NCBI GenBank assembly: GCA_013178225.1
Contig: JABLXE010000004.1
Location: 62,001-126,000 of the forward strand
DNA length: 64,000 bases
Source of the DNA: Methanotrichaceae archaeon
Lineage (GTDB): Archaea; Halobacteriota; Methanosarcinia; Methanotrichales; Methanotrichaceae
Direction: 5' to 3'
A program made the translations under genes and the position numbers. Under the pieces are notes generated by a model that had not been told where the DNA came from, made no database searches, and worked only from the letters and a program-made list of their open reading frames with translations. Position 1 is the first letter of the stretch; each line of letters begins with the position of its first letter. Shown here one piece after another: positions 30,233 to 54,474 of this stretch.

Positions 30233-30264
30233 AAAAAAATTGTGGTGGCGAAGTCCTCGCCACC
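30233..30264 (-). terminator. Terminator of the giant surface-protein gene
   Basis: Read on the minus strand, GGTGGCGA (30264-30257) and TCGCCACC (30251-30244) form a perfect 8-bp stem with a 5-base loop, overlapping the stop codon by one base, followed by seven T residues (30239-30233). It looks like a classical intrinsic terminator. Confidence 0.7.
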
Positions 30265-33200
30265 TATGCTACCTTGACGCCTACGATCTTGGAGCTGATA
30301 CAGCCGTCGATGTTAGCGTTCACCCGGAAGGACTTGTCCCCCGCAACACCGAACACCGAGGTGAGCTGGTAGGTGCCGGGCGAGACTCTGGTCAGCCTGG
30401 CGCCAGATGATGCAGCGTCCTGGGGGCTCCAGGAGATTCCCACGTCACTCGGATCGGCCAGCTGTCCGTAGTTGTTGTAGAACTTGGCGGTCAGAGTGTA
30501 GGGACGGTTCGGCTTGGTCGAGCTGAAGGTGAGGACGATGTCGCAGCTCTTCAGCCCGGCCGGAAGCGCGAGCCTCAAGGGCTTCACAAAGATGTTCTGC
30601 CCTTGAGAGTCTTTGCTCGCATAAGCCACCCAGTACATGCCGTCGAGGCTGCTGTAGGAAAGCGACGACGCCGTCTGGTCTCCCGGACCTGAGGCTACAA
30701 CTGTACTGTCTACAGGCGCCCAGTCCTGCAGGAACCGGTCGAGCACCAGGTCATAATTTCCCGGCTTCTTGGTGGCATAAAGCAGCATGAACTGGCCGTT
30801 AAGCCATTTGAGCTGCGGATAGTCCTGATCAGAGCCGTCTGTAGTCAGTCTCTTTTTCTCCAGGAAATTGAGGCTGCCGTCCAGCTTCTGCAGGAAGATG
30901 TCCAGGTTTCCGGTCTCCTTGGAGACATAGGCCAGATAGAAGTTGCCGCCTGCGTAGGCCAGCGATGGCCGGTCCTGGTAAGACTTCTGGTCTGTGACCT
31001 GGACTGTGCTCAGGGGGTTCCACTTCTGATCGAACCTGGTGATGAACAGATCGCCTCCGCTGTCTGAACCGCTGTCCCAGGACTGGTAGGCCAGGAAGAA
31101 GCTGTCGCCCGCTGCTACTAACGACGGTGAGTCCTGGTTGGTGGGTGAGCTGGTGAGCTGCTTGGTCTCGACCAGGTTCAGGCTGCCGTCGTACTTCTTG
31201 AGGAAGATATCCCGGCTTCCAGTCTCTCCCGACACGTAGGCCAGATAGTAGTAGCCCTGTGAAAAGACCAGAGACGGTGAATCCTGGTAGGCTTTATCCG
31301 AGGCCACCCACACATTCTTGAGACTGCTCCACGCGGGATCGAACTTTTGCATGGTCACATCTCCCTGATTGCCGGTGCCCTTCTCCCAGCTCTGGTAGGC
31401 CATGAGGAAACCGTCCCCGGTGAAGAGCAGGGACGGTTTATCCTTGATCGCGCTGCCGGTGGTGACCGCTCTGGCCACCAGAGGATCAAGCAGCTTGAAG
31501 GTCTGTCCCACCGCGCTATCGTATGCTCCCGTTCCAGCATGCTTTCCGTCTCTTACGTACACGTAGACCGTGTAGTCTCCGGCATCAGCCGCCGTGTTGC
31601 CCCAGGTCCACTGGTTTGAAGAGGACCAGTCCTGCACCACCTTCCAGGAGCCTCCGGTGGAGGGCCCCTTCAGCCAGAAGCGGTAGAGCAGAGGATCGCC
31701 ATCCTGGTCTGAGGCCAGAGCCGTCCACTTGATCGAAGTGCCCGCGTACTGCGGGCTGGGCTTGTCTGCTGTCAGGGAGGCGGCCTTGGGGGCCATGTTG
31801 GGAGCTGTCAGGAGGACGTAAGACGCGCCCATGGCGCTGTCGTATCCTCCAACTCCAGCGTGCTTTCCGTCCCTGGCATAGACGTAAACCGTGTAGGCTC
31901 CGGAATCTGCGGCAGCGCTGTTCCAGGTCCAGGTGTTGGCGTATGACCAGTCCTGCACCACCTTCCAGGCATTATCCGTAGACGGCCCCTTCAGCCAGAA
32001 CCGGTACAGAACCGGATCGCCATCGGGATCGGAAGAGAAGGCCGCGAACTTGACCGGAGTGCTTGCGTACTGCGGGCTGGGCTTATCGGGATTGAGAGCA
32101 GTCAGCCTGGGAGGCTCGTTGGGCCGCAGCACCGTGAAGAGCGCTCCGGCATCGTCGTCCCAGCCGGTCAGACTGGCGTGCCGCCCGTCCCTGGCCTGCA
32201 CCTGCACTTCGCTGGTGCCTATGTCTGCCAACGACGTGGGCCAGGTCCAGGTGGGATCTGTGGACCAGTCGCGGACCATCTTCCACAGCCCTCCGGTGGA
32301 TGGACCTCTCAGCCAGTAGCGGAAGAAGACCGGATCTCCATCGGGATCAAAGGCCGTTGCCATCCATCTGGCGGTCACGCCTACCTGCTGCGGGCTGGGT
32401 AGGTTAGCGCTCAGGCTGGTGATCGTCGGAGGCTGGTTCAGGCTGATTATGTAGTAGCTGCTGGTGGCGTAATCGTCCGAGCCGCTGGCTCCAGCGTGCT
32501 TGCCGTCCCTTACTGCCACCAGGACCTCGCTGTACCCGATATCCAGTCCTGTAGTTCTCCACACCCACTTGTTGTTCTTGCCCCAGCCGGTCTGGTCGAT
32601 CCAGAACCCGCCAGTGGAGGGCCCTCTCAGGAAGAAGCGGTACTGCAAGGGATCTCCATCTGGGTCCGAGGCCAGAGCCGTCCACTTGACCCAGTTTCCG
32701 GCGTACTGCGGTGCCGGGCGGTCTGCGAAGAGCGACTTTAAGACCGGCCGCTGGTTGGGGCTGGTAAGCTCGTAGTTCTTGTACTCTTTCCGGACGTCGT
32801 ACCCGCTGGGACCGGCGTGGTTGCCGTCCCTGATCCAGACCTCGATGTTGTACTTGCCTGGCAGGTACCCAACTGTGCTCCAGCTCCAGGTGTTGCTTCC
32901 CGAGTATCCGGTGTCTGCCCGGACTACGCTGCTGGAAGGCCCTTTCACGATGAACCTGTACTGCAGAGAATCTCCTTCCGGATCTGTCGCCCCTGCGGTC
33001 CAGACGATCGGCGTGCCCACCTTCTGCGGGCTGGCTTTGTTCGGCACCAGCGTGGGATCTATCGGCGGCAGGTTGTTGTTGCGGTTGCCGAAGTCCATCC
33101 CCTGCTTGTTCTGGCCGGCTGCGAGGGTGATCGTGTAGACCTGTCCACCCGCTCCCACTGCTGGTTTGGTCTGAGTCCAGCCATCCTCTAAAACCTCTCC

Positions 33201-36200
33201 CACCACGTAGCTTCCGGGTGTCAGGTTGAGGAAGGAGTAAGATCCATCCGAACCAGTGGTTGTAGTGGCCGCCAGGGTCAGATTAGACGAGTACTTGAGT
33301 TCGATTTCCCAATCCGGAAGTCCCGGCTCACCCGCGTCTTTAGCACCGTTGCCGTTCAGGTCGTTGAACTTGGTTCCCAGGATCGATGCCAGCTGTGGTG
33401 GCGTGACCAGGCGGTTTCCGAAGTTCTGGTTGGCCTTGTTGCTGTTGGTGACAGAGACTGTGATCTCGGTCGGAGTGGTCGGAGTCCAGCCCTGTCTCGC
33501 CAGCTCGGAGACCTTGTAGGTTCCCGGAAGGATGTTGGCGAAGGAGTAGGCTCCGTTGGAATCGGTGTAGGTCTGGGCCAGCAGCAGATCCGGCGCTGGG
33601 CCCGGGGTGACAAAGGTCAGGACGATTCCCCAGTGATCAATTCCCTGCTCGCCGGAGTCCTTCTGGCCGTTGCCGTTCAGGTCGTTGAACTTCACTCCCG
33701 AGATCTTGTGGGGGCTGACCGCCGGTACGTTTACCACCGCAGAGCCCGATGGGGTGACGGTGACCAGGATGGGGTCATCCACCTCGTAGTTTCCGGGCAT
33801 CAGGTTGGTGAAGGTATAGCTTCCATCCTCGCCGGTGGTTGTGGTTGCGATCTCCTTTCCGTCCTTGGCCAGGGTCACCTGCAGCCCGGGAAGTCCGGGC
33901 TCATCCTCATCCTGCACCCCGTTTCCGTTGGCATCGTAGAACTTGACGCCCGATAGGGACAGGTCGGCACGGTTGCCGAAGTCCAGGCCGGAAATATCGG
34001 CGTCTTTTAGCTCCGCGCCGTATGATCCGCTGGCGGGAGCAGTCTGAGCCCATCCGTCCTGCAAGACCTCGGAGACTGTGTACGCACCCGGTGCCAGGTC
34101 TCCGAATCTATAGGAGCCGTCCTGAGCGGTGGTGGTGGCGTTGATCACGCTGCCGTCTTTGGATAGCTGTACGGTCCAGCCGGAAAGGCCGGGCTCGCCT
34201 TCGTCTCTGGCTCCATTGCCGTCCAAATCCTGGTACTTCATGCCGGATATGGACCACGAGCCGCGGTTTCCGAAGTCCAGGCCGGTGGCATCAGAGTCCT
34301 TCAGCGCAACGCTGTGCGATCCGCTGGCAGGAGCGGTTCTGGTCCAGCCGGCCTGTTCGACCTCGGTGATGGTGTACGATCCGGCCTCCAGGCCTTGGAA
34401 CCTATAGGATCCGTCGGCCCCGGTAACGGCAGTAGAGGCCTCGCTGCCGTCTTTGGAAAGCTGTATGGTCCAGCCGGAAAGGCCGGGCTCTCCATCGTTG
34501 ACGCCGTTGTTGTTCAGGTCGTTATACTTCATTCCGGATATGGAGTAGGTATTCAGCCGGTTGCCGAATTCCACTCCGGTGAGGTCCGAGCCGCCAAGCT
34601 CGACCGACTGCGAGCCGCTCTCGGGAGCGGTTGCAGCCCAGCCGGCCTGCAGCACCTCGGAGACGGTGTAGGCTCCGGCAGTCAAACCTTCGAAGCGGTA
34701 GGAGCCGTCTTCGGCGGTCAGCGTGCTCACCTGGGACCCGTCCGGCTTTTGCAGGTTGATGGTCCAGCCTGACAGGCCGGGCTCGTCTCTATCCTTGACG
34801 CCATTGCCGTTCCGGTCGTTGTACTTGAGTCCGGTGATGTTGCGAGAGGGAGCGACGATGCTGAAGTAGGCGATCTGTTCGCCGTCGCTATTATCCTCTG
34901 GCGCATGCTTTCCGTCTCTGATCCACACCCTTACCTGGTTCTCGCCAGTATCCGCAGCTGTGGTATCCCAGGTCCAGGCGTTCTGTGCCGACCATCCGGT
35001 CTGCGGCTGCCAGGAGTTCCCTGTTGCCGGGCCGCTCAAGAAGAACCGGTAGAGGATCGAATCGCCCTCTGGGTCGGTGGCGTTGGCGGACCAGGTAACT
35101 GATGTTCCCGGTGGCTGCGGGCTGGTTGTGTCCGGGACCAGAAGGTTCAGCACCGGGGCCAGGTTCTCCTCAACCGCGGGAGAAGGTGCCACCGGGGCGG
35201 TTACGTTCTCGGGGATGGTGACGTTTTCGATGGCTGGTGTTACCGGTGCGGTCACATTTTCCGGTGTCACCGGCTCAGTCACGTTTTCAGGTGCAGGAGG
35301 AGTCTCGACCTCTGGGGTCTCAGCAGCCGTCTCCTGGACGGGGGCGTTGATGGTGTACTCAGCCACCATGCTGCTGTCAAAGCCATCCTCGCCGGCATGT
35401 TTGCCGTCCCTTACTCTGACCTCGATCTGGCTGGTTCCTGCCTGAGAGGCAGTCCAGGACCAGACATTGCCGGCCGTCCATTCCGTGACCTCGCTTCCAT
35501 TCAGCAGGAATCTGTAAAGCAAGGGGTCATTCTCGGGATCGGTGGCTTCAGCCGTCCAGACGACTGCCGTCCCTATCGGCTGCGGGCCGGGCTGGTCCGG
35601 GCTCAGGCTGACCATTGCCGGAGTCTCGTTTTCTTTTGCCGGGGCCGTCGCAGCAGCCTCTTGCTCAGCAGGTGCGACTATGTTGAAGCTTGCACTCCTG
35701 CTGTCGTCAAATCCATCCTGGCCGGCGTGTTTGCCGTCAATTATCCTTACCTCAACCTGGTGCTCACCAGTCTTGGCTCCCGCGGTGTCCCAGGTCCACT
35801 GGTTCTGGATAGACCAGTCGCTGACTGCCTGACCATCCAGGAAGAACCGGTACTGCACCGGTTCGTTCTCCGGATCGGCAGCTTGAGCGGTCCAGGTCAC
35901 GGTTGCACCGACTTCCTGCGGACTGGTCTTGTCTGCGACCAGTTCGGTCAGAGCAGGCTTTTGGTCAGGTGCGGTTAAAACGAAACTGACCGAGCGGCTG
36001 TCATCGAATCCATCCTGGCCGGCGTGTTTGCCATCAATTATCCTTACCTCAACCTGGTGCTCACCAGTCTTGGCTCCCGCGGTGTCCCAGGTCCACTGGT
36101 TCTGGATAGACCAGTCGCTGACTGCCTGACCATCCAGGAAGAACTGGTACTGCACCGGTTCGTTCTCCGGATCAGAGACTTGAGCGGTCCAGGTCACGGT

Positions 36201-39032
36201 TGCACCGACTTCCTGCGGACTGGTCTTGTCTGCGACCAGTTCGGTCAGAGCAGGCTTCTGGTCAGGTGCGGTTAAAACGAAACTGACCGAGCGGCTGTCA
36301 TCGAATCCATCCTGGCCGGCGTGTTTGCCGTCAATTATCCTGACTTCAACCTGGTGCTCGCCAGTCTTGGCTCCTGCGGTGTCCCAGGTCCACTGGTTCT
36401 GGATAGACCAGTCGCTGACTGCCTGACCGTCCAGGAAGAACCGGTACTGCACCAGATCGTTCTCGGGATCAGAGGCTTGAGCGGTCCAGGTCACGGTTGC
36501 ACCGACTTCCTGCGGACTGGTCTTGTCTGCAACCAGTTCGGTCAGAGCGGGCTTCTGGTTAGGTGCGGTTAAAACGAAACTGACCGATCGGCTTTCGTCA
36601 AATCCATCCTGGCCGGCGTGTTTGCCGTCAATTATCCTTACCTCAACCTGGTGCTCACCAGCCTTGGCTCCTGCGGTGTCCCATTTCCACTGGTTCTGAG
36701 CTGTCCATTCACTCACAGCCTGTCCGTCCAGGAAGAACCGGTACTGCACCGGTTCGTTCTCGGGATCAGAGGCTTGAGCGGTCCAGGTCACGGTTGCACC
36801 GACTTCCTGCGGACTGGTCTTGTCTGCGACCAGTTCGGTCAGAGCGGGCTTTTGGTCAGGTGCGGTTAAAACGAAACTGACCGAGCGGCTGTCATCGAAT
36901 CCATCCTGGCCGGCGTGTTTGCCGTCAATTATCCTTACCTCAACCTGGTGCTCGCCAGTCTTGGCTCCTGCGGTGTCCCAGGTCCACTGGTTCTGGATAG
37001 ACCAGTCGCCGACTGCCTGACCATCCAGGAAGAACCGGTACTGCACCGGATCGTTCTCCGGATCGGCGGCTACAGCGGTCCAGGTCACGGTTGCACCGAC
37101 TTCCTGCGGACTGGTTCTATCAGGGCCGAACTCTGTCAGAGCCGGCTTCTGGTTAGGTGCGGTCAAGGCAAAGCTGGCAGACCTGCGGTCATCGAAGCCG
37201 TCCGGTCCGGCGTGCTGGCCGTCTCTCACTCCCACCTCTACCTGATAGCTGCCGGCAGTGGCAGATGCAGTGTCCCAGATCCAGACGTTGGACCCGGTCC
37301 AGTCGGTCACCGGCTGGCCGTTTAGGAGGAACATGTAGTACAGCTGATCTCCTTCGAAATCAGAGGCTTCAGCCGTCCAGGTCACAACCGTTCCGGTCTC
37401 CTGGGGGCTCATCTCATCGGCACCCAGGTTAACTATGCTCGGTTTCTGGTTCGGAGCAGTTATGACAAAGCTTGCTCCTCGACCATCATCCGAACCATCC
37501 TGGCCGGCGTGTTTTCCGTCAATTATCCTGACCTCTACCTGATTCTCACCCACATCATCGGTGCCGGTCTTCCAGGTCCACTGGTTTTTAGTCGTCCAAT
37601 CGGTTGCAGGCTGGCCGTTTAAGAAGAACCGGTAGCGAATGGGGTCGTTCTCAGGATCCGAAGCTTCAGCCATCCAGGTGATCGCAGCTCCGGCCACCTG
37701 AGGACTGGCTTTGTCAGCCCCGAGACTCTTCAAGGCCGGGATCTGGTTGGGCACGGAAATTGTGAACTGTGCAGACCGGCTGTCATCGAGGCTGTCCGGC
37801 CCGGCGTGCTGGCCGTCTCTTACCCGCGCTTCAACCTGATAGTTACCAGCTGGTGCAGATGAAGTGTCCCAGCTCCAGACATTGGACCCGGTCCAGTCTG
37901 TCACCGGCTGGCCGTTTAAGAAGAACATGTAGAGCAGCGGGTCCCCATCGGAATCGCTGGCCTGGGCGGTCCAGGTTATAGGAGTTCCGGCCTCCTGGGG
38001 GCTGGACCTGTCCGGGCTCAGGCTTACCAGCGCCGGTTTCTGGTTGGGGGCAGTGATCGTGTACTCTGTTGAGGATACATCGTCGTAGCTCTGACGCTTG
38101 GCGTGCTCGCCGTCGATCACCCGAACCTCAATCTCGTAATCGCCGGGTCTCACGCGGGACGTGTCCCATGTCCAGGTATTGGATGCAGACCAATCCTGAG
38201 CCGTCCTGCCGCTCAGCAGGAACTGAAAGAGCAGAGAATCTCCCTCGGGATCGGAGGCCTCAGCGGTCCAGGTCACAGCCGTTCCTGCCGTCTGCGGGCT
38301 GTATGGACTGGCTGTAAATCCCGTCAGAGAGGGAGGCTCGTTGGCCTCGACCAGCTGGGCTGGCGTTCTCCCAAACTCCTGCACTTGTTCAGGCATTTGT
38401 TGGGGTATTTGCTGAGACGCCTGCTGGGGTTCTTCCGCAGCAGCAGGAATCCCGTAAAGCTCTTCCTCTTGAGTTGGCGGAACAAATCCGGGCGTCTCCT
38501 GTCTCTTGGAATTTATGATGTAATCCTGAACGCTTGAAGCGTCGCTCCCGTCTTCGTCGGCGTGATTGCCGTCTCGAATCCAGACCCGAACCTGGTTGGA
38601 GCCTGCATCATCTTCTGAGGTCTCCCATCTCCAGGATTCGCTCCTCGTCCATTCGGTCATCTTCTCCCAGCTTTCGCCGGTTGAGGGCCCGTTCAACCAG
38701 AACTGATAGTAAATCTGATCGCCCTCCGGGTCTATGGCCTTCGCTGACCACCGGATCGTCCTTCCTGCATCCTGAGGGCTGGACCTGTCGGGTTCGAAGT
38801 CGATCAGCTGCGGCGGCTGGTTGCTTCCGCTGGCCTGGTCAAGGCCGGGCAAATCCCCTGAAAACGGATTTCTGGAAGAAAAGTCTCCGGAAAAGGGTTG
38901 CGCCTGAACCGAGGACGCAAGCAGCATCCCGCATGTAATTGCAATCGTTAGAAGCAGAACGAAGTCTACAAATTTTCGTTTTCGGAGCTTTTTAGAGCTA
39001 AGCTCCCTCACGGCGACGTCTATAATTTCCAC
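30264..39032 (-). CDS. Giant secreted surface protein with PKD-like, SdrD-B-like and propeller-like repeats
   Basis: The protein of 2,922 residues begins (GTG start) with a basic segment and a signal peptide ending near residue 45. It contains about 12 repeats of roughly 99 residues, each starting NQKPAL or similar and containing SPQ-x2-G-x3-TW, WDT and DGKHAG motifs, a PKD/cadherin-like fold. A Pro/Thr/Glu-rich linker (about 1227-1290) precedes repeat 12. Six SdrD-B-like domains follow (about 1400-1990, G-x-K-x-x-D-x-N-G-N-G motifs that bind Ca2+ in relatives), then five more PKD-like repeats with the variant GPSTG, a propeller-like region (about 2517-2823) and a final Ig-like domain. No C-terminal anchor is seen. 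Its role may be in the envelope or adhesion. Confidence 0.88.
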   Translation of the reverse strand: MEIIDVAVRELSSKKLRKRKFVDFVLLLTIAITCGMLLASSVQAQPFSGDFSSRNPFSGDLPGLDQASGSNQPPQLIDFEPDRSSPQDAGRTIRWSAKAIDPEGDQIYYQFWLNGPSTGESWEKMTEWTRSESWRWETSEDDAGSNQVRVWIRDGNHADEDGSDASSVQDYIINSKRQETPGFVPPTQEEELYGIPAAAEEPQQASQQIPQQMPEQVQEFGRTPAQLVEANEPPSLTGFTASPYSPQTAGTAVTWTAEASDPEGDSLLFQFLLSGRTAQDWSASNTWTWDTSRVRPGDYEIEVRVIDGEHAKRQSYDDVSSTEYTITAPNQKPALVSLSPDRSSPQEAGTPITWTAQASDSDGDPLLYMFFLNGQPVTDWTGSNVWSWDTSSAPAGNYQVEARVRDGQHAGPDSLDDSRSAQFTISVPNQIPALKSLGADKASPQVAGAAITWMAEASDPENDPIRYRFFLNGQPATDWTTKNQWTWKTGTDDVGENQVEVRIIDGKHAGQDGSDDGRGASFVITAPNQKPSIVNLGADEMSPQETGTVVTWTAEASDFEGDQLYYMFLLNGQPVTDWTGSNVWIWDTASATAGSYQVEVGVRDGQHAGPDGFDDRRSASFALTAPNQKPALTEFGPDRTSPQEVGATVTWTAVAADPENDPVQYRFFLDGQAVGDWSIQNQWTWDTAGAKTGEHQVEVRIIDGKHAGQDGFDDSRSVSFVLTAPDQKPALTELVADKTSPQEVGATVTWTAQASDPENEPVQYRFFLDGQAVSEWTAQNQWKWDTAGAKAGEHQVEVRIIDGKHAGQDGFDESRSVSFVLTAPNQKPALTELVADKTSPQEVGATVTWTAQASDPENDLVQYRFFLDGQAVSDWSIQNQWTWDTAGAKTGEHQVEVRIIDGKHAGQDGFDDSRSVSFVLTAPDQKPALTELVADKTSPQEVGATVTWTAQVSDPENEPVQYQFFLDGQAVSDWSIQNQWTWDTAGAKTGEHQVEVRIIDGKHAGQDGFDDSRSVSFVLTAPDQKPALTELVADKTSPQEVGATVTWTAQAADPENEPVQYRFFLDGQAVSDWSIQNQWTWDTAGAKTGEHQVEVRIIDGKHAGQDGFDDSRSASFNIVAPAEQEAAATAPAKENETPAMVSLSPDQPGPQPIGTAVVWTAEATDPENDPLLYRFLLNGSEVTEWTAGNVWSWTASQAGTSQIEVRVRDGKHAGEDGFDSSMVAEYTINAPVQETAAETPEVETPPAPENVTEPVTPENVTAPVTPAIENVTIPENVTAPVAPSPAVEENLAPVLNLLVPDTTSPQPPGTSVTWSANATDPEGDSILYRFFLSGPATGNSWQPQTGWSAQNAWTWDTTAADTGENQVRVWIRDGKHAPEDNSDGEQIAYFSIVAPSRNITGLKYNDRNGNGVKDRDEPGLSGWTINLQKPDGSQVSTLTAEDGSYRFEGLTAGAYTVSEVLQAGWAATAPESGSQSVELGGSDLTGVEFGNRLNTYSISGMKYNDLNNNGVNDGEPGLSGWTIQLSKDGSEASTAVTGADGSYRFQGLEAGSYTITEVEQAGWTRTAPASGSHSVALKDSDATGLDFGNRGSWSISGMKYQDLDGNGARDEGEPGLSGWTVQLSKDGSVINATTTAQDGSYRFGDLAPGAYTVSEVLQDGWAQTAPASGSYGAELKDADISGLDFGNRADLSLSGVKFYDANGNGVQDEDEPGLPGLQVTLAKDGKEIATTTTGEDGSYTFTNLMPGNYEVDDPILVTVTPSGSAVVNVPAVSPHKISGVKFNDLNGNGQKDSGEQGIDHWGIVLTFVTPGPAPDLLLAQTYTDSNGAYSFANILPGTYKVSELARQGWTPTTPTEITVSVTNSNKANQNFGNRLVTPPQLASILGTKFNDLNGNGAKDAGEPGLPDWEIELKYSSNLTLAATTTTGSDGSYSFLNLTPGSYVVGEVLEDGWTQTKPAVGAGGQVYTITLAAGQNKQGMDFGNRNNNLPPIDPTLVPNKASPQKVGTPIVWTAGATDPEGDSLQYRFIVKGPSSSVVRADTGYSGSNTWSWSTVGYLPGKYNIEVWIRDGNHAGPSGYDVRKEYKNYELTSPNQRPVLKSLFADRPAPQYAGNWVKWTALASDPDGDPLQYRFFLRGPSTGGFWIDQTGWGKNNKWVWRTTGLDIGYSEVLVAVRDGKHAGASGSDDYATSSYYIISLNQPPTITSLSANLPSPQQVGVTARWMATAFDPDGDPVFFRYWLRGPSTGGLWKMVRDWSTDPTWTWPTSLADIGTSEVQVQARDGRHASLTGWDDDAGALFTVLRPNEPPRLTALNPDKPSPQYASTPVKFAAFSSDPDGDPVLYRFWLKGPSTDNAWKVVQDWSYANTWTWNSAAADSGAYTVYVYARDGKHAGVGGYDSAMGASYVLLTAPNMAPKAASLTADKPSPQYAGTSIKWTALASDQDGDPLLYRFWLKGPSTGGSWKVVQDWSSSNQWTWGNTAADAGDYTVYVYVRDGKHAGTGAYDSAVGQTFKLLDPLVARAVTTGSAIKDKPSLLFTGDGFLMAYQSWEKGTGNQGDVTMQKFDPAWSSLKNVWVASDKAYQDSPSLVFSQGYYYLAYVSGETGSRDIFLKKYDGSLNLVETKQLTSSPTNQDSPSLVAAGDSFFLAYQSWDSGSDSGGDLFITRFDQKWNPLSTVQVTDQKSYQDRPSLAYAGGNFYLAYVSKETGNLDIFLQKLDGSLNFLEKKRLTTDGSDQDYPQLKWLNGQFMLLYATKKPGNYDLVLDRFLQDWAPVDSTVVASGPGDQTASSLSYSSLDGMYWVAYASKDSQGQNIFVKPLRLALPAGLKSCDIVLTFSSTKPNRPYTLTAKFYNNYGQLADPSDVGISWSPQDAASSGARLTRVSPGTYQLTSVFGVAGDKSFRVNANIDGCISSKIVGVKVA
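35680..37170 (-). repeat. Five near-identical 297-bp tandem units inside the giant gene
   Basis: The DNA of about residues 620-1117 consists of tandem units of exactly 297 bp (99 codons). Long blocks are base-for-base identical between units, for example the block around GGTCCACTGGTTCTGGATAG. Such conservation at synonymous sites points to recent duplication or gene conversion. The flanking repeats are related in protein but not at DNA level. Confidence 0.8.
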
Positions 39033-42614: not shown

Positions 42615-43202
42615 ATGAGGATTGCGGGAATCTCCGGCAGCCCCCGAAAGGCCGGAAATTCCGAGTATCTGCTGGGTGAAGCCCTGAAGGTGGCGGAGGA
42701 GCGTGGCTTTTCCACCCAGATGCTGCTCTGCTCGGAGCTTCGAATAGGCTTTTGCGAAGACTGCGGGGCCTGCAGCAGAGGCCGGAGCTGTCAGCATGAG
42801 GACGACATGAAGGCCGTGCTGGCCGCACTGGAGCAGGCCGACGGAATGGTGATCGTCTCTCCGGTCTACTTCGGCTCCGTAACCGCTCAGCTGAAAGCTC
42901 TGTTCGACCGCACCATTCCCCTGAGGCGGCAGGGGATGAAGCTGAAAGACAAGATTGGGTGCGCGGTAACCGTGGGAGGTGCCAGAAACGGAGGCCAGGA
43001 GAGGGCCATAGAGAACATCCACTCCTGGATGCATATTCACGGAATGGTCATCGTTGGAGACAACAGTCACTTCGGCGGGATCGCAGTCCGGCCCGCCTCT
43101 GAGGACCGCATTGGGAAGAACACCACCATTGCCAGCGCCAACAAGCTTTGCGACCTTTTGGAAAGGATCGAGAAGAAAGGCGGTTGCTGGTCAGGGGATT
43201 AA
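42615..43202 (+). CDS. Iron-sulfur flavoprotein (flavodoxin-like NADPH-dependent FMN reductase)
   Basis: The 195-residue protein has the FMN-binding start GISGSPRKAGNSEYLL and the compact cysteine motif C47-x2-C50-x2-C53-x5-C59 that holds a [4Fe-4S] cluster in methanogen Isf proteins. The later SPVYFGSVTAQLKALFDRT is the flavodoxin-like signature. Isf moves electrons, probably from ferredoxin to oxygen or peroxide in methanogens. It ends in front of the convergent curlin-like gene, separated by a terminator for the latter. Confidence 0.9.
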   Translation: MRIAGISGSPRKAGNSEYLLGEALKVAEERGFSTQMLLCSELRIGFCEDCGACSRGRSCQHEDDMKAVLAALEQADGMVIVSPVYFGSVTAQLKALFDRTIPLRRQGMKLKDKIGCAVTVGGARNGGQERAIENIHSWMHIHGMVIVGDNSHFGGIAVRPASEDRIGKNTTIASANKLCDLLERIEKKGGCWSGD

Positions 43203-43236: not shown

Positions 43237-43950
43237 TTAAGAGGGGCCGATTCTCACTTCATTCTGGAAGGACTGAGTCACCTGGCCTTTGCTCTTAGAC
43301 TTGATCTTGACCTTCTGCTGGAACTGGTTGTAGTCCTGATCCAGGGTCTGGCCGTAATTTGAGCCGGACTGCATTACCGGCTGGTTGCTCCTTCCTGCGG
43401 TCACGGTGGCCTGTACCTGCTGGTTGACCTGGTTGTAAGAGCCGGTCATGTATGCGGTGTTGCTCATGGTCTGGTTGGTCTGGTTGAAGGACTGAGCGTA
43501 GGCCAGGAGCCCCTGCACCAGTGTATTGCCGTCCCCGGTGATTGAGCCCGTGTTCCAGCCGTTCTGGAAGATATTTTCTCCGTATGCGGTCTGGCTCACC
43601 TGCTGGTTGGCGTAGTTGCCGTCGCCAAGAACCGCCAGAGCATTGGCTCCGCTCTGGGTGATCTCCGATCCTTTAGCCTTCTGGTTCACGTTCTGTTTGA
43701 CGGTGTTGCCGTCACCCACAACCACCACGGCGTTCGCTCCGCTCTGGGTGATCTGGCTGCCGGATCCGCTCTGGGAGACACCCTGGCTGATGTAATTGTT
43801 ATTGCCCGAGACCACGGCGGCGTTGGCCGCGCTCTGGCTCACCTGTCCGCTTCCGGACATGCTTATGCTCTGCTTCACCACGTTTCCATAGGCTGCTGCG
43901 GAAGAGACCGTAATCAGCAGCGCAGCTAAGGCAATAGCTAATTTTCTCAT
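43237..43950 (-). CDS. Secreted curlin-like repeat protein, amyloid candidate
   Basis: The 237-residue protein has a clean signal peptide (cut after about SSAAA, residue 20). Four repeats with a period of exactly 30 residues begin at Gln39, Gln69, Gln99 and Gln129, each as Q-S/N-x2-N-A/T-x4-x-G-D/N-x-N followed by Q-x-V-x-Q. This spacing of Gln, Asn, Ser and Gly matches curlin-type beta-solenoid amyloid repeats. The second half is also rich in Gln and Asn. Methanothrix sheaths are reported to be functional amyloid, though made of another protein; a role in sheath or biofilm is inference. No export or nucleator genes (CsgB/CsgG-like) are seen nearby. Confidence 0.72.
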   Translation of the reverse strand: MRKLAIALAALLITVSSAAAYGNVVKQSISMSGSGQVSQSAANAAVVSGNNNYISQGVSQSGSGSQITQSGANAVVVVGDGNTVKQNVNQKAKGSEITQSGANALAVLGDGNYANQQVSQTAYGENIFQNGWNTGSITGDGNTLVQGLLAYAQSFNQTNQTMSNTAYMTGSYNQVNQQVQATVTAGRSNQPVMQSGSNYGQTLDQDYNQFQQKVKIKSKSKGQVTQSFQNEVRIGPS

Positions 43951-44466: not shown

Positions 44467-45570
44467 ATGGCAACCATCGAGGAGCAGATCAAGGCGCTGG
44501 AAGAAGAGATCTTCAATACCCAGAAGAACAAGGCAACAGAGCACCACCTCGGCAAGCTAAAGGCCAAGATCGCGAAGCTGCGGGCACAGCAGGAGCTGCA
44601 GAAGATCAAGGGCGGCGGCCAGGGCCGGAGATACTACATAAAGAAGTCGGGCGATGCCACCGTGGCCCTAGTGGGCTTTCCGTCGGTCGGCAAGTCCAGC
44701 CTGTTGAACTACCTCACGGGCTCCAAATCGGAGGTGGCAGCCTATCAGTTCACCACGCTGGAGGTAATTCCGGGGGTAATGGAGTACAAGGGCGCTAAGA
44801 TTCAGATCCTCGATATGCCGGGAATCATCAAGGGCGCGGCTCGCGGAAAGGGTCGGGGGCGGGAGGTCATAACCGCTGCCCGGGCAGCAGACATAATCCT
44901 GCTCTTGGGAGATGTGTTCAACTACCGCCTGGACATCCTGGAAAGAGAGCTTTATGAGGCCGGAATCCGGCTGGACAAGCAGCCTCCGAACATCCATATC
45001 ACCCAGGAGCAAAAGGGCGGGATCATGGTCAGAAGCACGGTGCAGCTCACCCGCATGACCGAGCTGGAGATCGCAGAGATCATTCGCGCCTACGGCATCG
45101 TCAACGCCTCGGTGACCATTAGGGAAGACATAGACACCGACAGCCTGGTGGACTTCCTGGCCGGAAACAGAGTGTATATACCATCGGTGGTGGCCATCAA
45201 TAAGTTCGATCTCAAGTACGGCGGCGTGGAGCAAAAGATTGGACATGATATCGGACGGGAATACCTGCCGGCCTCTGTGGCCACCCGACAGGGCTTAGAG
45301 GAGCTTAAGGACCTGATATACACCCGATTGGGGTTCATCAGGGTCTACCTGAAGCCCAAGGGCGGAAAAGCCGACATGGAAGAGCCGCTGGTGATCCTTG
45401 ACGGCTCCACGGTGCGAACGGTTTGCGAACACCTGCATCGCGACTTTGTGGAATTGTTCCGGTACGCTCTGGTGTGGGGAAAGAGCGCCAAGTTCCCCGG
45501 TCAATCGGTAGGGCTGGATCATTCGCTAACAGACGGCGACGTCCTCTCAATTATCACCAAGAGAAGATAG
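44467..45570 (+). CDS. DRG-family GTP-binding protein
   Basis: DRG GTPases belong to the Obg-HflX group and associate with ribosomes. The 367-residue protein has a basic helical N-terminus, G1 GFPSVGKSS at residues 70-78, the effector region TTLEVIPGVMEYKGAKIQILDMPGII with G3, an inserted S5D2L-like helical domain, G4 NKFD and a C-terminal TGS domain (about 290-367). Both length and order match archaeal DRG. It starts at ATG 44467 inside a compact ATGACAAATGG context without a clear ribosome-binding site. Confidence 0.95.
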   Translation: MATIEEQIKALEEEIFNTQKNKATEHHLGKLKAKIAKLRAQQELQKIKGGGQGRRYYIKKSGDATVALVGFPSVGKSSLLNYLTGSKSEVAAYQFTTLEVIPGVMEYKGAKIQILDMPGIIKGAARGKGRGREVITAARAADIILLLGDVFNYRLDILERELYEAGIRLDKQPPNIHITQEQKGGIMVRSTVQLTRMTELEIAEIIRAYGIVNASVTIREDIDTDSLVDFLAGNRVYIPSVVAINKFDLKYGGVEQKIGHDIGREYLPASVATRQGLEELKDLIYTRLGFIRVYLKPKGGKADMEEPLVILDGSTVRTVCEHLHRDFVELFRYALVWGKSAKFPGQSVGLDHSLTDGDVLSIITKRR

Positions 45571-45891: not shown

Positions 45892-47385
45892 ATGAAGAAA
45901 CTGACTGCGGCCTTGATCGCGCTCTTTTGCCTGGTATGGACCTGCCAATCTCTCACCGACCTCGATTACCGGCTGGGTACCTCCAAACACGGATCTGCGT
46001 CTCTCTCCGATCTGGAGAGCTTTCACGGAGAAAATTCCGCCAGGCTCTCTGTGGATGAAGAGGGAAATTACATCCGGGTCAGCGTCTACTTCGATTATCC
46101 AATGCCTATCATTGATCTCGATCATCTGAGCATGTGGATGTATCCGCAATCAGGCAACGGAAATATCCAGATCGAGATCTTCCTTGATGGAGACGCCGAT
46201 GGCAGCTACAACTCCAAGAGCTCTGACGATGCCAGGCTGCGCTCGGCCAAAAAATCCTGGTCGGAGATGAGCATCGAGACAGAGCAGTGGAACGAGCTGG
46301 ATGGATTTGACCTCTGCTATGAGGAATACGGCGAAGACGGCCTGGCCACGCTGGATGAACGAGCGCATCAGCTACAAGGCCTTGATGTGGTCAGGATCTA
46401 CATCACCATTTACAAAGATCCCGGCGTGGAGACGACATCCGTCTTTTTGGACTACATAAAAGCAGGGGACCAGATAATCAGCTTCGAGCCGCTGGAAGAA
46501 GAGGTGATCAAGAGCGGGCCGGCTTCTGCCAGCCCCGGAGGTCAGATAACCTACACCCTGACCTATGGCAACAACCTTCAAGAGCCGATAGATCTGGTGA
46601 TAACCGAGTTCTACGATTCCCGAACCATCTTTGTGAGCGCAGATCCAGGACCTGACGCTGGCACGGACAACGTCTGGACCATTCGCAGCCTGCAGCCGGG
46701 AGAGCACGGCCAGATCGTGGTGAAGGTCAAGACTAACAAATTCAGCTGCAAAGCGGATATAAATGGAAGAGCCTCAGGAACGGGCTTCACATCGATTAAA
46801 AATATTGTGTCCAACGATCTGGAAAGCTATGAAATAACCAACACCGTGCGGCTCGCCTCCAGCGGATTCAATGCCACAGACACGGTCAGGACGGCCATCC
46901 GGCCGGTGGCCGGCTCGAGCACCAGCTTTAATCATCACGGCTATGGGGATTTTCGGTCACAAGGGTGGCTGAAGTACTCATCCAGCAGCATCATTCTGCA
47001 GCAGGCGATGAACGCCAGCCGGTCGCCGGTGCTGGTCAACCCCGGCAGCAAGACATTGACCTTTTGCGGCCACCTGTATGCCAGCAATGCCTTTCTCAGC
47101 CCGGCCAGGGAGATCTCCTACAGCGAAGAATATCGCTATGCGGATAGCCTGAGGCTTGACACAAACCTCCGTCTGAGCAAGAGCAACACCGATCTGCAGA
47201 GCCTCTCCTCTTTCTCCGGCTGGGCGGAGATCGCGCAGAAATGGCGGAACACTTCCTACATGCAGCAATACGTGGGCTCCTTTTCCCGGGATTTGCAGGC
47301 CCACACCAGGATAGCCAAGAAGACCAAGAGCAGAAGCGAAGATTCGCTGGAGTGCTGCTTTGCATCCCAGGATGTGGAACTGTGA
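45892..47385 (+). CDS. Secreted protein with a DUF11-like domain
   Basis: The 497-residue protein has a signal peptide (first 20 residues, ending CQSLT). Residues about 25-200 form a domain with repeated strands and Asp-rich turns that I cannot name. Residues about 205-290 resemble the conserved DUF11 repeat: GPASASPGGQITYTLTYGNN, then YDSRTIFVSADPGPDAG and LQPGEHGQIVVKVK. The C-terminal 200 residues are Ser- and Asn-rich without a membrane helix. DUF11 domains are common in archaeal envelope proteins. It is preceded by copy B of the intergenic module. Confidence 0.7.
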   Translation: MKKLTAALIALFCLVWTCQSLTDLDYRLGTSKHGSASLSDLESFHGENSARLSVDEEGNYIRVSVYFDYPMPIIDLDHLSMWMYPQSGNGNIQIEIFLDGDADGSYNSKSSDDARLRSAKKSWSEMSIETEQWNELDGFDLCYEEYGEDGLATLDERAHQLQGLDVVRIYITIYKDPGVETTSVFLDYIKAGDQIISFEPLEEEVIKSGPASASPGGQITYTLTYGNNLQEPIDLVITEFYDSRTIFVSADPGPDAGTDNVWTIRSLQPGEHGQIVVKVKTNKFSCKADINGRASGTGFTSIKNIVSNDLESYEITNTVRLASSGFNATDTVRTAIRPVAGSSTSFNHHGYGDFRSQGWLKYSSSSIILQQAMNASRSPVLVNPGSKTLTFCGHLYASNAFLSPAREISYSEEYRYADSLRLDTNLRLSKSNTDLQSLSSFSGWAEIAQKWRNTSYMQQYVGSFSRDLQAHTRIAKKTKSRSEDSLECCFASQDVEL

Positions 47386-50988: not shown

Positions 50989-53900
50989 ATGATCAGACGA
51001 TCTTTGTGGACATTATTTGTAGTACTCATCCTGATATTTCTGCTTCCGGCCGTCAGTGCCAGCGCCCGGCAGGACGGAATGCCGGACCACTTGCCAGCCG
51101 GTAACATGAGCGATGATGGAAAGCTTCCGGTCGTAGTTTTGTTCAAAGGACTGGACAGGCCCGATCTCAGCGGCGTGGATGTGAGATATCAATACCGGCT
51201 AATCAACGGACTCGCCGGACGGGCCGCTTCCTCAGACATCGAGCGCATTGCCGGGAGCGAAACCGTGCTGGGAGTTTATCCGGATGATTTGATAGATGTT
51301 AAAATGCCCGCTGACGAGACCTCGAACGGCCTGCTGCTTTGCCCGGCCACGGTGATCGGTGCCGAAAAGCTGTGGGAAAGGGGAATTGATGGTAGCGGAG
51401 TGGTGGTTGCAGTTCTCGATTCGGGCATCGATCGCAACCACCCAGACCTGGCAGGAAAGGTGATCGGAGAGAAGAACTTCGTCGAAGATGAGGCCTCTGC
51501 CGACGACCTGCTGGGGCACGGCACCATGGTTGCCGGGATAATTGCCGGCAGCGGCGCGATGTCAAGCGGGACTTATAAAGGGGTTGCCCCTGGCGCCGGC
51601 CTGCTTAACGTCAAGGTAATAGACAAGAGCGGAGACGGAAAAGTATCAGACATCATCGCGGGCATCGAATGGGCGCTTTACAGCGGCGCTGATGTGCTGA
51701 GCTTAAGCCTTGGTGGGGCAAACCTGGGCGAGACCAACCCGCCCATCACCATGGCAGCGGACAACGCCATGGATGCGGGCGCGGTGGTGTGCGTGGCTGC
51801 AGGCAACCGCAACAACACCAAGACCAACGGGGTCGCCCAGAGTGCGGGGCCGAATTTTGGGCTGTCCGGTGAGGACATGGTTAGGATCTCTCAGCGGAGC
51901 GACAGCGATGACGTTTTCCTGGTCCTGGTTCCGATAATACTGGCCCTAACTCCCGGGCTGATCGACTCCCCGGGCGACGGCGTAAATGTGATAACAGTGG
52001 GCTCCTCGGATTGTGCAGGGCACGTGGCCGGCTTCAGCGGCTCCGGACCCACCAGGGATGGCAGGACCAAGCCGGAGATCGTGGGGCCTGGAGTGGACGT
52101 GGTATCGACCGTTCCGATGGCCCTCGAGGATCTGAATTACATCGACGTCTATTACGCCAGGGAGTCGGGAACCAGCCTCTCCACTCCAGCAGTGGCCGGA
52201 ATGGCGGCGTTGTTGCTGCAGGCTGAGCCGGACCTGACTCCGGCCGGGGTCAAAGCGGCTCTGACCAGGGGCGCTGAAAAGCTTCGCAATTCCCAGGGAG
52301 AGGAGTACGAGGAGTACTATCAGGGCGCGGGAGAGATGAACGCCGAGGGTTCCTACCAGCAGCTAGACCAGGATCTGTGTGCTGCGATACCGGATAAATG
52401 GGTCGCAGGAAAGTGGGCCTATCTGCCCGCCGGAAAAGGGCTTTACGTGGGGCTGGATGCAGGAGCAGACCGGCCGCAAAAGAAGCTGTATTCTCTGGCA
52501 CCCGGAGACGAAGACTGGAACAACGAGTTCGTGTTCTTTACCGACAAAGACCGGGAAGATCTGCAGGTCTCGGCTGAGGGAGAGGTGGCGGACTGGATAA
52601 GCCTTCAGTCCCTGCCCCGTAAGGCGTCTGCCAACGACCAGGAGATATTCGGCGCTTCGCTGAGGGTGCCGGAGGACGCTTTACCCGGAACTCACAACGG
52701 CTCGATTATCATCAGTGAGAAAGGCCGGTCCATATTCACCATACCGGTGTCCGTGGAGGTCGCAGAGCCGCTGGCGATCTCCAGAGGAAGAGGATCTGCG
52801 ACAGACATGCTTGCCGATAGCCAGTGGCACTACTATTATCTCGACGTTCCGGTTGGAACGAGCGAACTGAGATCTGTTCTATCGGCGAAGGGCACCTCTG
52901 CCAGCCTCGACCTGTTCCTGCTTTCTCCCACCAGCGAATACTATGCCGGCGAACTGAAAGGCTTAACCCAGGAGGTAAGCGTCGAAAGCCCGCCCAACGG
53001 ACGGTGGCTTTTGGCTGTTCACAGCGAAAATCTGACCGCCCCGCTGAACTATAGCCTTGAAGTTGAGCGATCGCTAATCGATAGCTCTCCTCGGAGATGG
53101 AACCTGGAGGACGGCTTTCCCGGCCAGAGCGTGAGCAGCCTCTTTGTCGTCGAGAATCGAGGTCCTGCGCTGGAGAATTTGAGCTACAGGAGCGTCATCG
53201 AAAATATCACCCGCCTGGATCTGAGCGGATCTGTCGGCTCTAAAGAGGTCTGGGAGAGCACGCTTGCCGTCACCGACCAGACCAGCCGGCTGTCGGCCAG
53301 GCTACATTCTCACGACCGCAACAACAGAAGCGAGCTTCTCTTTCTCTTCGAGGACCCCGAAGGGCAGCCCCTGGACGCCGACCTGGGTAAGGGGGACCTG
53401 GGGCCTCTCGAGGTCTCCCGGCCTAAGCCCGGACTCTGGAAGATCAGGGTTTACGGCTATGACGTTCCCGGTGGGGGGCAGTCCTTCGATGTAGGCCTTA
53501 CCGACTACGCTAAGGAGCCCTGGAGCTGGATATTAACGGAAGGGCCGGGTATGATCGAGAGCGAGTCAAACGGCACCATTAAGGCAGTTCTATCCATTCC
53601 CGAGAACGCCTCCTCTCAAAGGCTGGACGGGTACCTGGAGGTGTCAGCTGCGAACCAATCCTTTCAGATCCCCGTCAGCGTGACCGTGGCCGGAACGACG
53701 CTTGAGGGTCTGCGTGAGGCCAAGGCTCTTGATAGCAACGGCGACGGATACTACGATCGGCTCAGATTGGATCTCGGCCTCAACGAGACGGTTTCCGGGG
53801 TCTATAGCGTGGAAGGAGTGCTGACGGATTGCGCCGGAAATCGGATAGAAGACCTGAGCGCCACTGCCGGCGGGCAGATGGAAGGCCAAGTCGAGATTGA

Positions 53901-54474
53901 GGTGAACGGAAGCTTGATCTGGAGATGGGGAAGATGCGGCCCCTTGAGGATTGAGAACCTCGTGCTCCGCAATCCTCGCGGAGATCTAATCGACCATTAT
54001 GAGGGAAAGATCACCATAGACGAAGATCCAAAAAGCTTCCAGCCTCCGTCCGCATTCTTTTCCGGAGGCTTCCAGAACCTGACCGGCTCCCAGAAGATCG
54101 CCATTGGAGTTAACCTGACGGTCATCGATCCTGGAACCTACAGGGTTGAAGGGTCTCTCCTCAACGATCGCGGCGAAGAGGTGGGAAAGGACAGCGTGGA
54201 GAAAAGGCTCGTCTCCGGCAATGTCTCCTTATCCCTGGAGTTCAACCCCACTAAATTCGAGATGTTTGGCAGAAGCTCTCGTTTGCATCTGGTGGACCTG
54301 GTGCTCTCCCGGGACGGAGCAGAGCTGGATCGACTGCCTGAAGCATGGTCTTCCGGAGTCATGAATCCCCGCGGCTTCGGACCTGCGGCCAGCTCTTCCG
54401 TCACATCCAACCTGACCCCTGAAGGCGGGAGGGGAGCCATAAGAATAGAGAACGGACGGGCGGTCATATCCTGA
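50989..54474 (+). CDS. Large secreted subtilisin-like serine protease
   Basis: The 1,161-residue protein has a signal peptide (to about SASA, residue 26) and an S8 domain with Asp144 (AVLDSGIDRNH), His177 (LLGHGTMVAG) and Ser396 (SGTSLSTPAVAG). A propeptide-like segment lies between residues 45 and 115. An unusual insertion (about 290-330) holds a hydrophobic run. After the protease domain come beta-sandwich domains, some resembling pre-peptidase C-terminal domains (around 590-690). No C-terminal anchor or sorting motif is seen. It is divergent from the archaeosortase operon across 70 bases, so the two promoters are back to back. Confidence 0.88.
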   Translation: MIRRSLWTLFVVLILIFLLPAVSASARQDGMPDHLPAGNMSDDGKLPVVVLFKGLDRPDLSGVDVRYQYRLINGLAGRAASSDIERIAGSETVLGVYPDDLIDVKMPADETSNGLLLCPATVIGAEKLWERGIDGSGVVVAVLDSGIDRNHPDLAGKVIGEKNFVEDEASADDLLGHGTMVAGIIAGSGAMSSGTYKGVAPGAGLLNVKVIDKSGDGKVSDIIAGIEWALYSGADVLSLSLGGANLGETNPPITMAADNAMDAGAVVCVAAGNRNNTKTNGVAQSAGPNFGLSGEDMVRISQRSDSDDVFLVLVPIILALTPGLIDSPGDGVNVITVGSSDCAGHVAGFSGSGPTRDGRTKPEIVGPGVDVVSTVPMALEDLNYIDVYYARESGTSLSTPAVAGMAALLLQAEPDLTPAGVKAALTRGAEKLRNSQGEEYEEYYQGAGEMNAEGSYQQLDQDLCAAIPDKWVAGKWAYLPAGKGLYVGLDAGADRPQKKLYSLAPGDEDWNNEFVFFTDKDREDLQVSAEGEVADWISLQSLPRKASANDQEIFGASLRVPEDALPGTHNGSIIISEKGRSIFTIPVSVEVAEPLAISRGRGSATDMLADSQWHYYYLDVPVGTSELRSVLSAKGTSASLDLFLLSPTSEYYAGELKGLTQEVSVESPPNGRWLLAVHSENLTAPLNYSLEVERSLIDSSPRRWNLEDGFPGQSVSSLFVVENRGPALENLSYRSVIENITRLDLSGSVGSKEVWESTLAVTDQTSRLSARLHSHDRNNRSELLFLFEDPEGQPLDADLGKGDLGPLEVSRPKPGLWKIRVYGYDVPGGGQSFDVGLTDYAKEPWSWILTEGPGMIESESNGTIKAVLSIPENASSQRLDGYLEVSAANQSFQIPVSVTVAGTTLEGLREAKALDSNGDGYYDRLRLDLGLNETVSGVYSVEGVLTDCAGNRIEDLSATAGGQMEGQVEIEVNGSLIWRWGRCGPLRIENLVLRNPRGDLIDHYEGKITIDEDPKSFQPPSAFFSGGFQNLTGSQKIAIGVNLTVIDPGTYRVEGSLLNDRGEEVGKDSVEKRLVSGNVSLSLEFNPTKFEMFGRSSRLHLVDLVLSRDGAELDRLPEAWSSGVMNPRGFGPAASSSVTSNLTPEGGRGAIRIENGRAVIS

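Follow-up and report, generated by a model that had tools for sequence, protein, structure and literature searches.

The open reading frame for a 237-residue product analysed here, from a 64,000-nucleotide stretch of the genome of a Methanotrichaceae archaeon (hereafter the window), encodes a real, conserved and secreted repeat protein that is specific to the Methanotrichaceae and whose predicted fold is a two-sheet beta-arch solenoid. As far as our tests reach, this protein is curlin-like in architecture and not a curlin by descent. The most valuable result, in our opinion, is a recurring cluster of genes for secreted proteins that ties solenoids of this kind to probable relatives of the sheath protein. 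The hosts are sheathed filaments that dominate acetate-driven methane production, and genomic context had given no clue to the proteins that assemble their sheath or plugs (PMC11576556); the cluster is such a clue.

Gene and repeat anatomy

The first-pass annotation of this DNA had described the open reading frame, a secreted product and glutamines at residues 39, 69, 99 and 129, all of which we could confirm (Table 1). The N-terminus (MRKLAIALAALLITVSSAAA followed by YG) reads as a Sec signal peptide, in support of the Sec-type secretion proposed there, and a C-terminal membrane anchor is absent. The repeats had also been called exact, which is true of the 30-residue period and not of the copies, as repeats 1 to 3 share only 15–17 of 30 residues in pairwise comparison, and repeat 4 shares 7–11 of 30 with these. 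At the DNA level repeats 1 to 3 are 59–70% identical, and all that Tandem Repeats Finder picked up of the array was a 90-bp unit in 1.8 copies. The lag-30 self-identity of the mature protein was 0.267, compared to a maximum over all lags of at most 0.207 in shuffled sequences (n = 5000); both the reading frame and its 30-residue period are genuine and lie far beyond chance. The regularity of Gln, Ser, Asn and Gly in the repeats was borne out as well, and these four residues make up about half of the mature protein. No Pfam domain was found in the window protein or in family members, no anchor or binding domain was seen in the window protein's sequence, and searching NCBIfam and the sequences of solved structures with it returned noise only.

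Table 1. Coordinates of the solenoid gene, its parts, its neighbours and related loci. Positions refer to the window unless a locus is named.
Feature	Position	Strand	Remarks
Secreted 30-residue-repeat protein, predicted beta-solenoid, 237 aa	43237..43950	-	ATG start
Signal peptide, residues 1-20 (MRKLAIALAALLITVSSAAA)	43891..43950	-	Sequence; N-terminal hydrophobicity in all complete orthologues
N-terminal half rung, residues 24-38	43837..43881	-	Second half of the repeat pattern; model strand E4-28 (mature numbering)
Repeat 1, residues 39-68	43747..43836	-	Self-comparison and repeat model
Repeat 2, residues 69-98	43657..43746	-	Self-comparison and repeat model
Repeat 3, residues 99-128	43567..43656	-	Self-comparison and repeat model
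Repeat 4, degenerate, residues 129-158	43477..43566	-	7-11/30 identities
C-terminal degenerate rungs, residues 159-237	43240..43476	-	Repeat model (weak, 163-180) and AlphaFold2 strands E138-149, E154-165, E172-182, E189-199, E204-214 (mature-protein numbering)
NADPH-dependent FMN reductase-type flavoprotein	42615..43202	+	Downstream neighbour, conserved in 2 loci
DRG-type GTPase with TGS domain, housekeeping	44467..45570	+	Between the solenoid gene and the 497-aa neighbour; position conserved in 4 loci
Secreted, conserved 497-aa neighbour with DUF11-like domain	45892..47385	+	C-terminal half remotely similar to family C
Solenoid-A-B-C-D clusters	L101 2983-7276; L102 6868-12056; L105 1938-8514; L108 3996-10650		
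Small secreted protein with Gly/Cys-rich tail	L031 6865-7308; L034 6881-7327; L035 817-1275		

Distribution of the family

Full-length orthologues were found by phmmer over the relatives in 13 Methanotrichaceae genomes from six genera, the source genome included, at identities of 43–53%; one of these orthologues is truncated where its contig stops, and one genome carries two copies. A profile search was positive in 17 of 50 Methanotrichaceae genomes and, in a sample of 393 genomes from the phylum, gave no match beyond this family. Over the genome contigs, a scan with the single protein returned no match and an alignment-based search returned nine, and no viral relatives of the solenoid family were found. 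The orthologues are nearly constant in length (237–250 aa, about seven rungs), all complete ones keep the hydrophobic N-terminus, and repeats 1, 2 and 3 are kept in those with 41–53% identity to the window protein. In several genomes the gene lies beside the DRG GTPase or a secreted protein of the 497-aa type, and such a shared position is expected of an old, vertically inherited gene. A single-contig genome of 1,879,471 bp, which we take to be that of Methanothrix thermoacetophila PT, carries an orthologue at 1566770-1567492; another of 2,559,043 bp, presumably M. harundinacea, holds only a decayed copy in the form of a broken one-repeat remnant (L107 7258-7414). Several relatives that bear sheath genes, including one with a genome of 3,008,626 bp, are without the solenoid family, which therefore is not an essential part of the sheath.

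Predicted structure and proposed mechanism

With 10 natural sequences as input, AlphaFold2 returned a beta-solenoid at a pLDDT of 95.7 and a pTM of 0.91, in agreement with the solenoid anticipated by the first-pass annotation. The model has two sheets, and each rung takes up 30 residues; every G-[DN]-x-N marks a short loop, the strands span residues 4–214 of 217, and neither end is capped. Across 37 distinct repeats, mean entropy was 0.47 bits in the inward columns versus 2.06 in the outward ones, and charged residues occupied 0 of 518 inward and 74 of 592 outward positions. The inward columns were initially chosen with conservation in view, a choice allowed for by a permutation test over all two-strand alternation schemes, in which the best scheme (strand starts at positions 14 and 29 of the repeat) showed a contrast greater than all 3000 column permutations. 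The solenoid prediction is a confident one, and the conservation of the repeats, as independent support, fits it. Foldseek gave no match to solved structures at E≤0.001 and no significant match to viral structures; FapC of Pseudomonas (9u4u), which ranked fourth in the fold search, is not a real match (TM 0.14, probability 0.04, E 0.2).

On this model, the protein would be an extracellular structural protein of the Methanotrichaceae, exported via Sec, in which every rung is built from two 11-residue strands and two four-residue arcs, namely strand a (N-x-V-x-Q-x-V-x-Q-x-A), an x-G-x-x arc, strand b (I-x-Q-x-A-x-N-x-A-x-V) and a second x-G-x-x arc. Along the axis, the Gln and Asn residues that point inward would be joined by hydrogen bonds into ladders, with mostly polar residues facing outward. 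Because the solenoid is uncapped and its beta edges are open at both termini, subunits should stack end to end and could form a curli-like fibre. The reading we favor, at what we would call even chances, is that the protein leaves the cell via Sec and, lacking caps, stacks into an extracellular fibre that is probably a minor component associated with the sheath or matrix; polymerisation, amyloid character and sheath location are what we infer for it. Paralogues have the same rung, and one of them, a secreted 449-aa solenoid of another genome (L104 5734-7083, also L049), carries about 12 near-perfect 30-residue repeats (QGNTANQRIDQTAMGYGIDQDAINLANLLG) and is a natural long version of the rung seen in the window protein. 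Pfam matches on this 12-copy paralogue (hnRNP_Q_AcD and others) were repeat artefacts, and no stretch of it passes.

It is conceivable, if less likely, that the protein is a solenoid and yet no polymer, acting instead at the surface as a monomer or with caps, for instance as an adhesin or a sheath-binding or plug protein. The almost fixed length of about seven rungs in all orthologues is what one would expect of such a protein, and its degenerate C-terminal rungs could serve as a stop, but the model strands reach both termini with no capping element, and neither an anchor or binding domain nor a Pfam domain is present in the sequence. As for the model itself, AlphaFold2 is known to over-predict confident beta-solenoids for perfect repeats, often with internally stacked charges (PMC11795689), and a protein in which Q, S, G and N account for about half of the mature residues might in truth be a disordered secreted matrix protein rich in Gln, Asn, Ser and Gly. 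We consider such an artefact unlikely, given that this bias is countered here by imperfect repeats and an inward charge of zero, that the alignment is a natural one at about 50% identity, that conservation alternates strictly between inward and outward positions, and that the 497-aa neighbour received a pLDDT of 38, so that not everything scored high.

Relationship to curlin

Membership in the curlin family, as put forward in the first-pass annotation together with an HMM search to check it, did not hold up. Of the two outcomes that the annotation had named as refuting it, the lack of a curlin HMM match was observed, and a model without a solenoid was not. At E≤10 the Pfam model Curlin_rpt (PF07012) matched neither the 14 members of the family nor 7 diverged paralogues; CsgA and CsgB, run against the same library as controls, scored 95.8 and 86.3 bits. 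One PF07012 match over the cut-off in the source genome was rejected because it fell on a spurious frame with NQAEIRQKSGR in tandem copies. The kernel N-x-Psi-x-Psi-x-Q does not occur in the window protein and is found 5 times in CsgA and 6 in CsgB; Q-x-G-x-x-N is likewise missing from it and occurs 5 times in each of the two curlins; and Q-x10-Q is no more frequent in it than in shuffled sequences. Profile-profile comparison with CsgA/B (hhalign) gave a probability of 0.3%. As regards fold, AlphaFold2 gave a confident solenoid, but its Foldseek match to CsgA (8c50) reached only E 0.63 and TM 0.10. The earlier remark that no Csg export genes lie nearby holds on a wider scale, as CsgG (PF03783) was absent from 41 genomes, namely the source and 40 relatives, with 4 of 4 control bacteria matched; lacking an outer membrane, an archaeon would have no use for this channel.

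The arc-entry motif G-x-x-N-x-Psi does occur five times both in the window protein and in CsgA, above the count in shuffles; "Curlin associated" phage proteins are among the best viral fold matches, but at E 0.008–0.19 and a TM of about 0.2–0.3; and Dueholm et al. 2012 (PMC3521004) refer to an archaeal protein, left unnamed, whose regular repeats resemble those of curli. These observations might be taken to indicate a true but highly diverged curlin, that is, a CsgA homologue with longer strands whose Csg machinery was lost or never present, which we regard as improbable in view of the failure of Curlin_rpt on every member, the profile comparison, the absent kernel motifs, a period of 30 versus about 23 (PMC10192328), the missing CsgG, and a family limited to the Methanotrichaceae in the phylum sample. 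With no Curlin_rpt match, kernel motif, profile similarity or CsgG to rely on, we hold that the protein works like a curlin subunit at most, and do not file it as a curlin. An ice-binding-type beta-roll is hardly credible, since the grass antifreeze beta-roll model, which rests on N-x-V-x-G motifs, matches 3 of the 14 members weakly and in every case below the cut-off (best E 0.15), and the solenoid family is present in the genome taken as that of the thermophile M. thermoacetophila, where ice binding would make no sense.

Solenoid clusters and a possible link to the sheath

Three diverged solenoids of 309 aa (C28), 716 aa (C3) and 189 aa (C6) were found in the source genome by profile search. 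Genes for secreted proteins recur in the order solenoid-A-B-C-D twice in the source genome and once in G035, and G013 has a solenoid cluster with D moved to the front. All-against-all phmmer connected all four families, A to D, between the four loci, with E values of about 1e-40 or better for C, about 1e-12 to 1e-25 for B and D, and 1e-4 to 1e-10 for A. Partial or diverged clusters were seen in G006 and G012; loci with such versions are L147 (953-4306), L148, L152 and G006:C132. The A–D proteins that we tested belong to no Pfam family and gave only noise in NCBIfam. Upstream of the C3 solenoid cluster lies a gene for a secreted matrixin-like metalloprotease (L102 4702-6153; PF00413, barely over the cut-off).

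All 50 Methanotrichaceae genomes carry family C, frequently as multiple copies. In the 1,879,471-bp genome, the probable genes for the main sheath protein (SH) are tandem genes for secreted proteins (L142 1773-4635), about 11 kb from an S-layer-type gene; such putative SH genes are multi-copy in all 50 genomes, as SH genes have been described to be (PMC11576556), and it is from that description, rather than from locus tags, that we infer their identity with the published ones. One putative SH profile matched family C at 83% hhalign probability over the last 53 columns, whereas a second putative SH family gave 3.6% against family C, and the two putative SH families gave 6% against each other. 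The putative SH genes and family C (L101 3558-4478) also have in common a C-terminal motif, Y-x-G-x-F-x-I ... W-L-x-C-C, which suggests that family C belongs to the SH superfamily. In the source genome, three of the four solenoid loci have a gene fully or remotely similar to family C within about 2–4 kb. Since these genomes hold many sheath-like genes, we roughly estimate that chance alone would produce such adjacency at perhaps 10% per solenoid locus. What connects the solenoids to the sheath are distant profile matches that cover short C-terminal segments, and the link should be seen as a lead, not as proof. In hhalign, the solenoid itself reached 6.7% with one putative SH profile and 0.1% with the other, and the SH-type core of two sheets with six antiparallel strands each is not found in its model, where strands are 30-residue-periodic along the whole chain.

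In the window, the C-terminal half of the 497-aa neighbour matched an expanded family-C profile at 80% hhalign probability (E 1.4e-5), with unrelated alignments and the reversed sequence at 1% or below; the apparent relation is one of profiles, because the AlphaFold2 pLDDT of this protein was only 38. Its counterpart in the 1,879,471-bp genome directly adjoins the orthologue, in divergent orientation. The FMN reductase-type flavoprotein is not thought to be part of the solenoid system. Other secreted proteins are encoded in the window as well, namely a 2922-aa giant (30264-39032) with SdrD_B, CarboxypepD_reg and Big_7 domains, in which a 99-residue repeat recurs about five times in similar form (297-bp units, 91% match), and a 1161-aa subtilase (50989-54474) whose gene lies close to those for the solenoid and the DUF11 protein. 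In a Methanocrinis-like clade, the gene for a small secreted protein with a Gly/Cys-rich tail (GGGGCGCG) is conserved directly downstream of the solenoid gene. As a tentative proposal, the Methanotrichaceae may possess a multi-gene secreted amyloid system of their own, sequence-unrelated to curli, in which the solenoid, accessory proteins A, B and D and the sheath-protein relative C would build fibres and sheath together, and of which the window pair 43237-43950/45892-47385 would be a reduced, stand-alone version.

Comparison with known systems

The first-pass annotation was right that the Methanothrix sheath amyloid had been reported from a different protein. MspA of Methanothrix thermoacetophila PT (ABK14853.1, Mthe_1069) is, like the window protein, a secreted candidate amyloid of a Methanotrichaceae sheath, and differs from this 237-aa protein by its described mass of 60.9 kDa (PMC6242892); the argument has been made that MspA was mistaken for the main sheath protein (PMC11576556). 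The archaeal sheath protein SH (Methanospirillum WP_011449234.1 and Methanothrix SH; PMC11576556, PMC10593813) is also secreted, beta-rich and found in the same organisms, and its remote relatives adjoin solenoid genes. SH is amyloid-like as well, a character that we only presume for the solenoid protein, and its core of two six-stranded antiparallel sheets differs from a predicted repeat solenoid.

With curlin (CsgA-CsgB), the window protein has in common secretion, strand-arc-strand rungs with x-G-x-x arcs, a polar surface, inward Asn/Gln ladders around small hydrophobic residues and an uncapped solenoid, which here is a prediction. The curlin rung consists of N-x-Psi-x-Psi-x-Q plus x-G-x-x, twice over, with strands of 7 residues and arcs of 4 (PMC10192328), and measures about 22–23 residues; the archaeal rung has 30, with 11-residue strands, and therefore resembles a curlin arch in which each strand has been extended by four residues. 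The archaeal protein also differs from curlin in having no HMM or profile match and no csg genes, in a host with a single membrane. Should it form fibres, archaea would have an equivalent of curli, arrived at with another rung length and with no secretion channel. The family also allows one to ask cleanly whether stacked beta-arch fibres converge on x-G-x-x arcs and Asn/Gln ladders as a rule.
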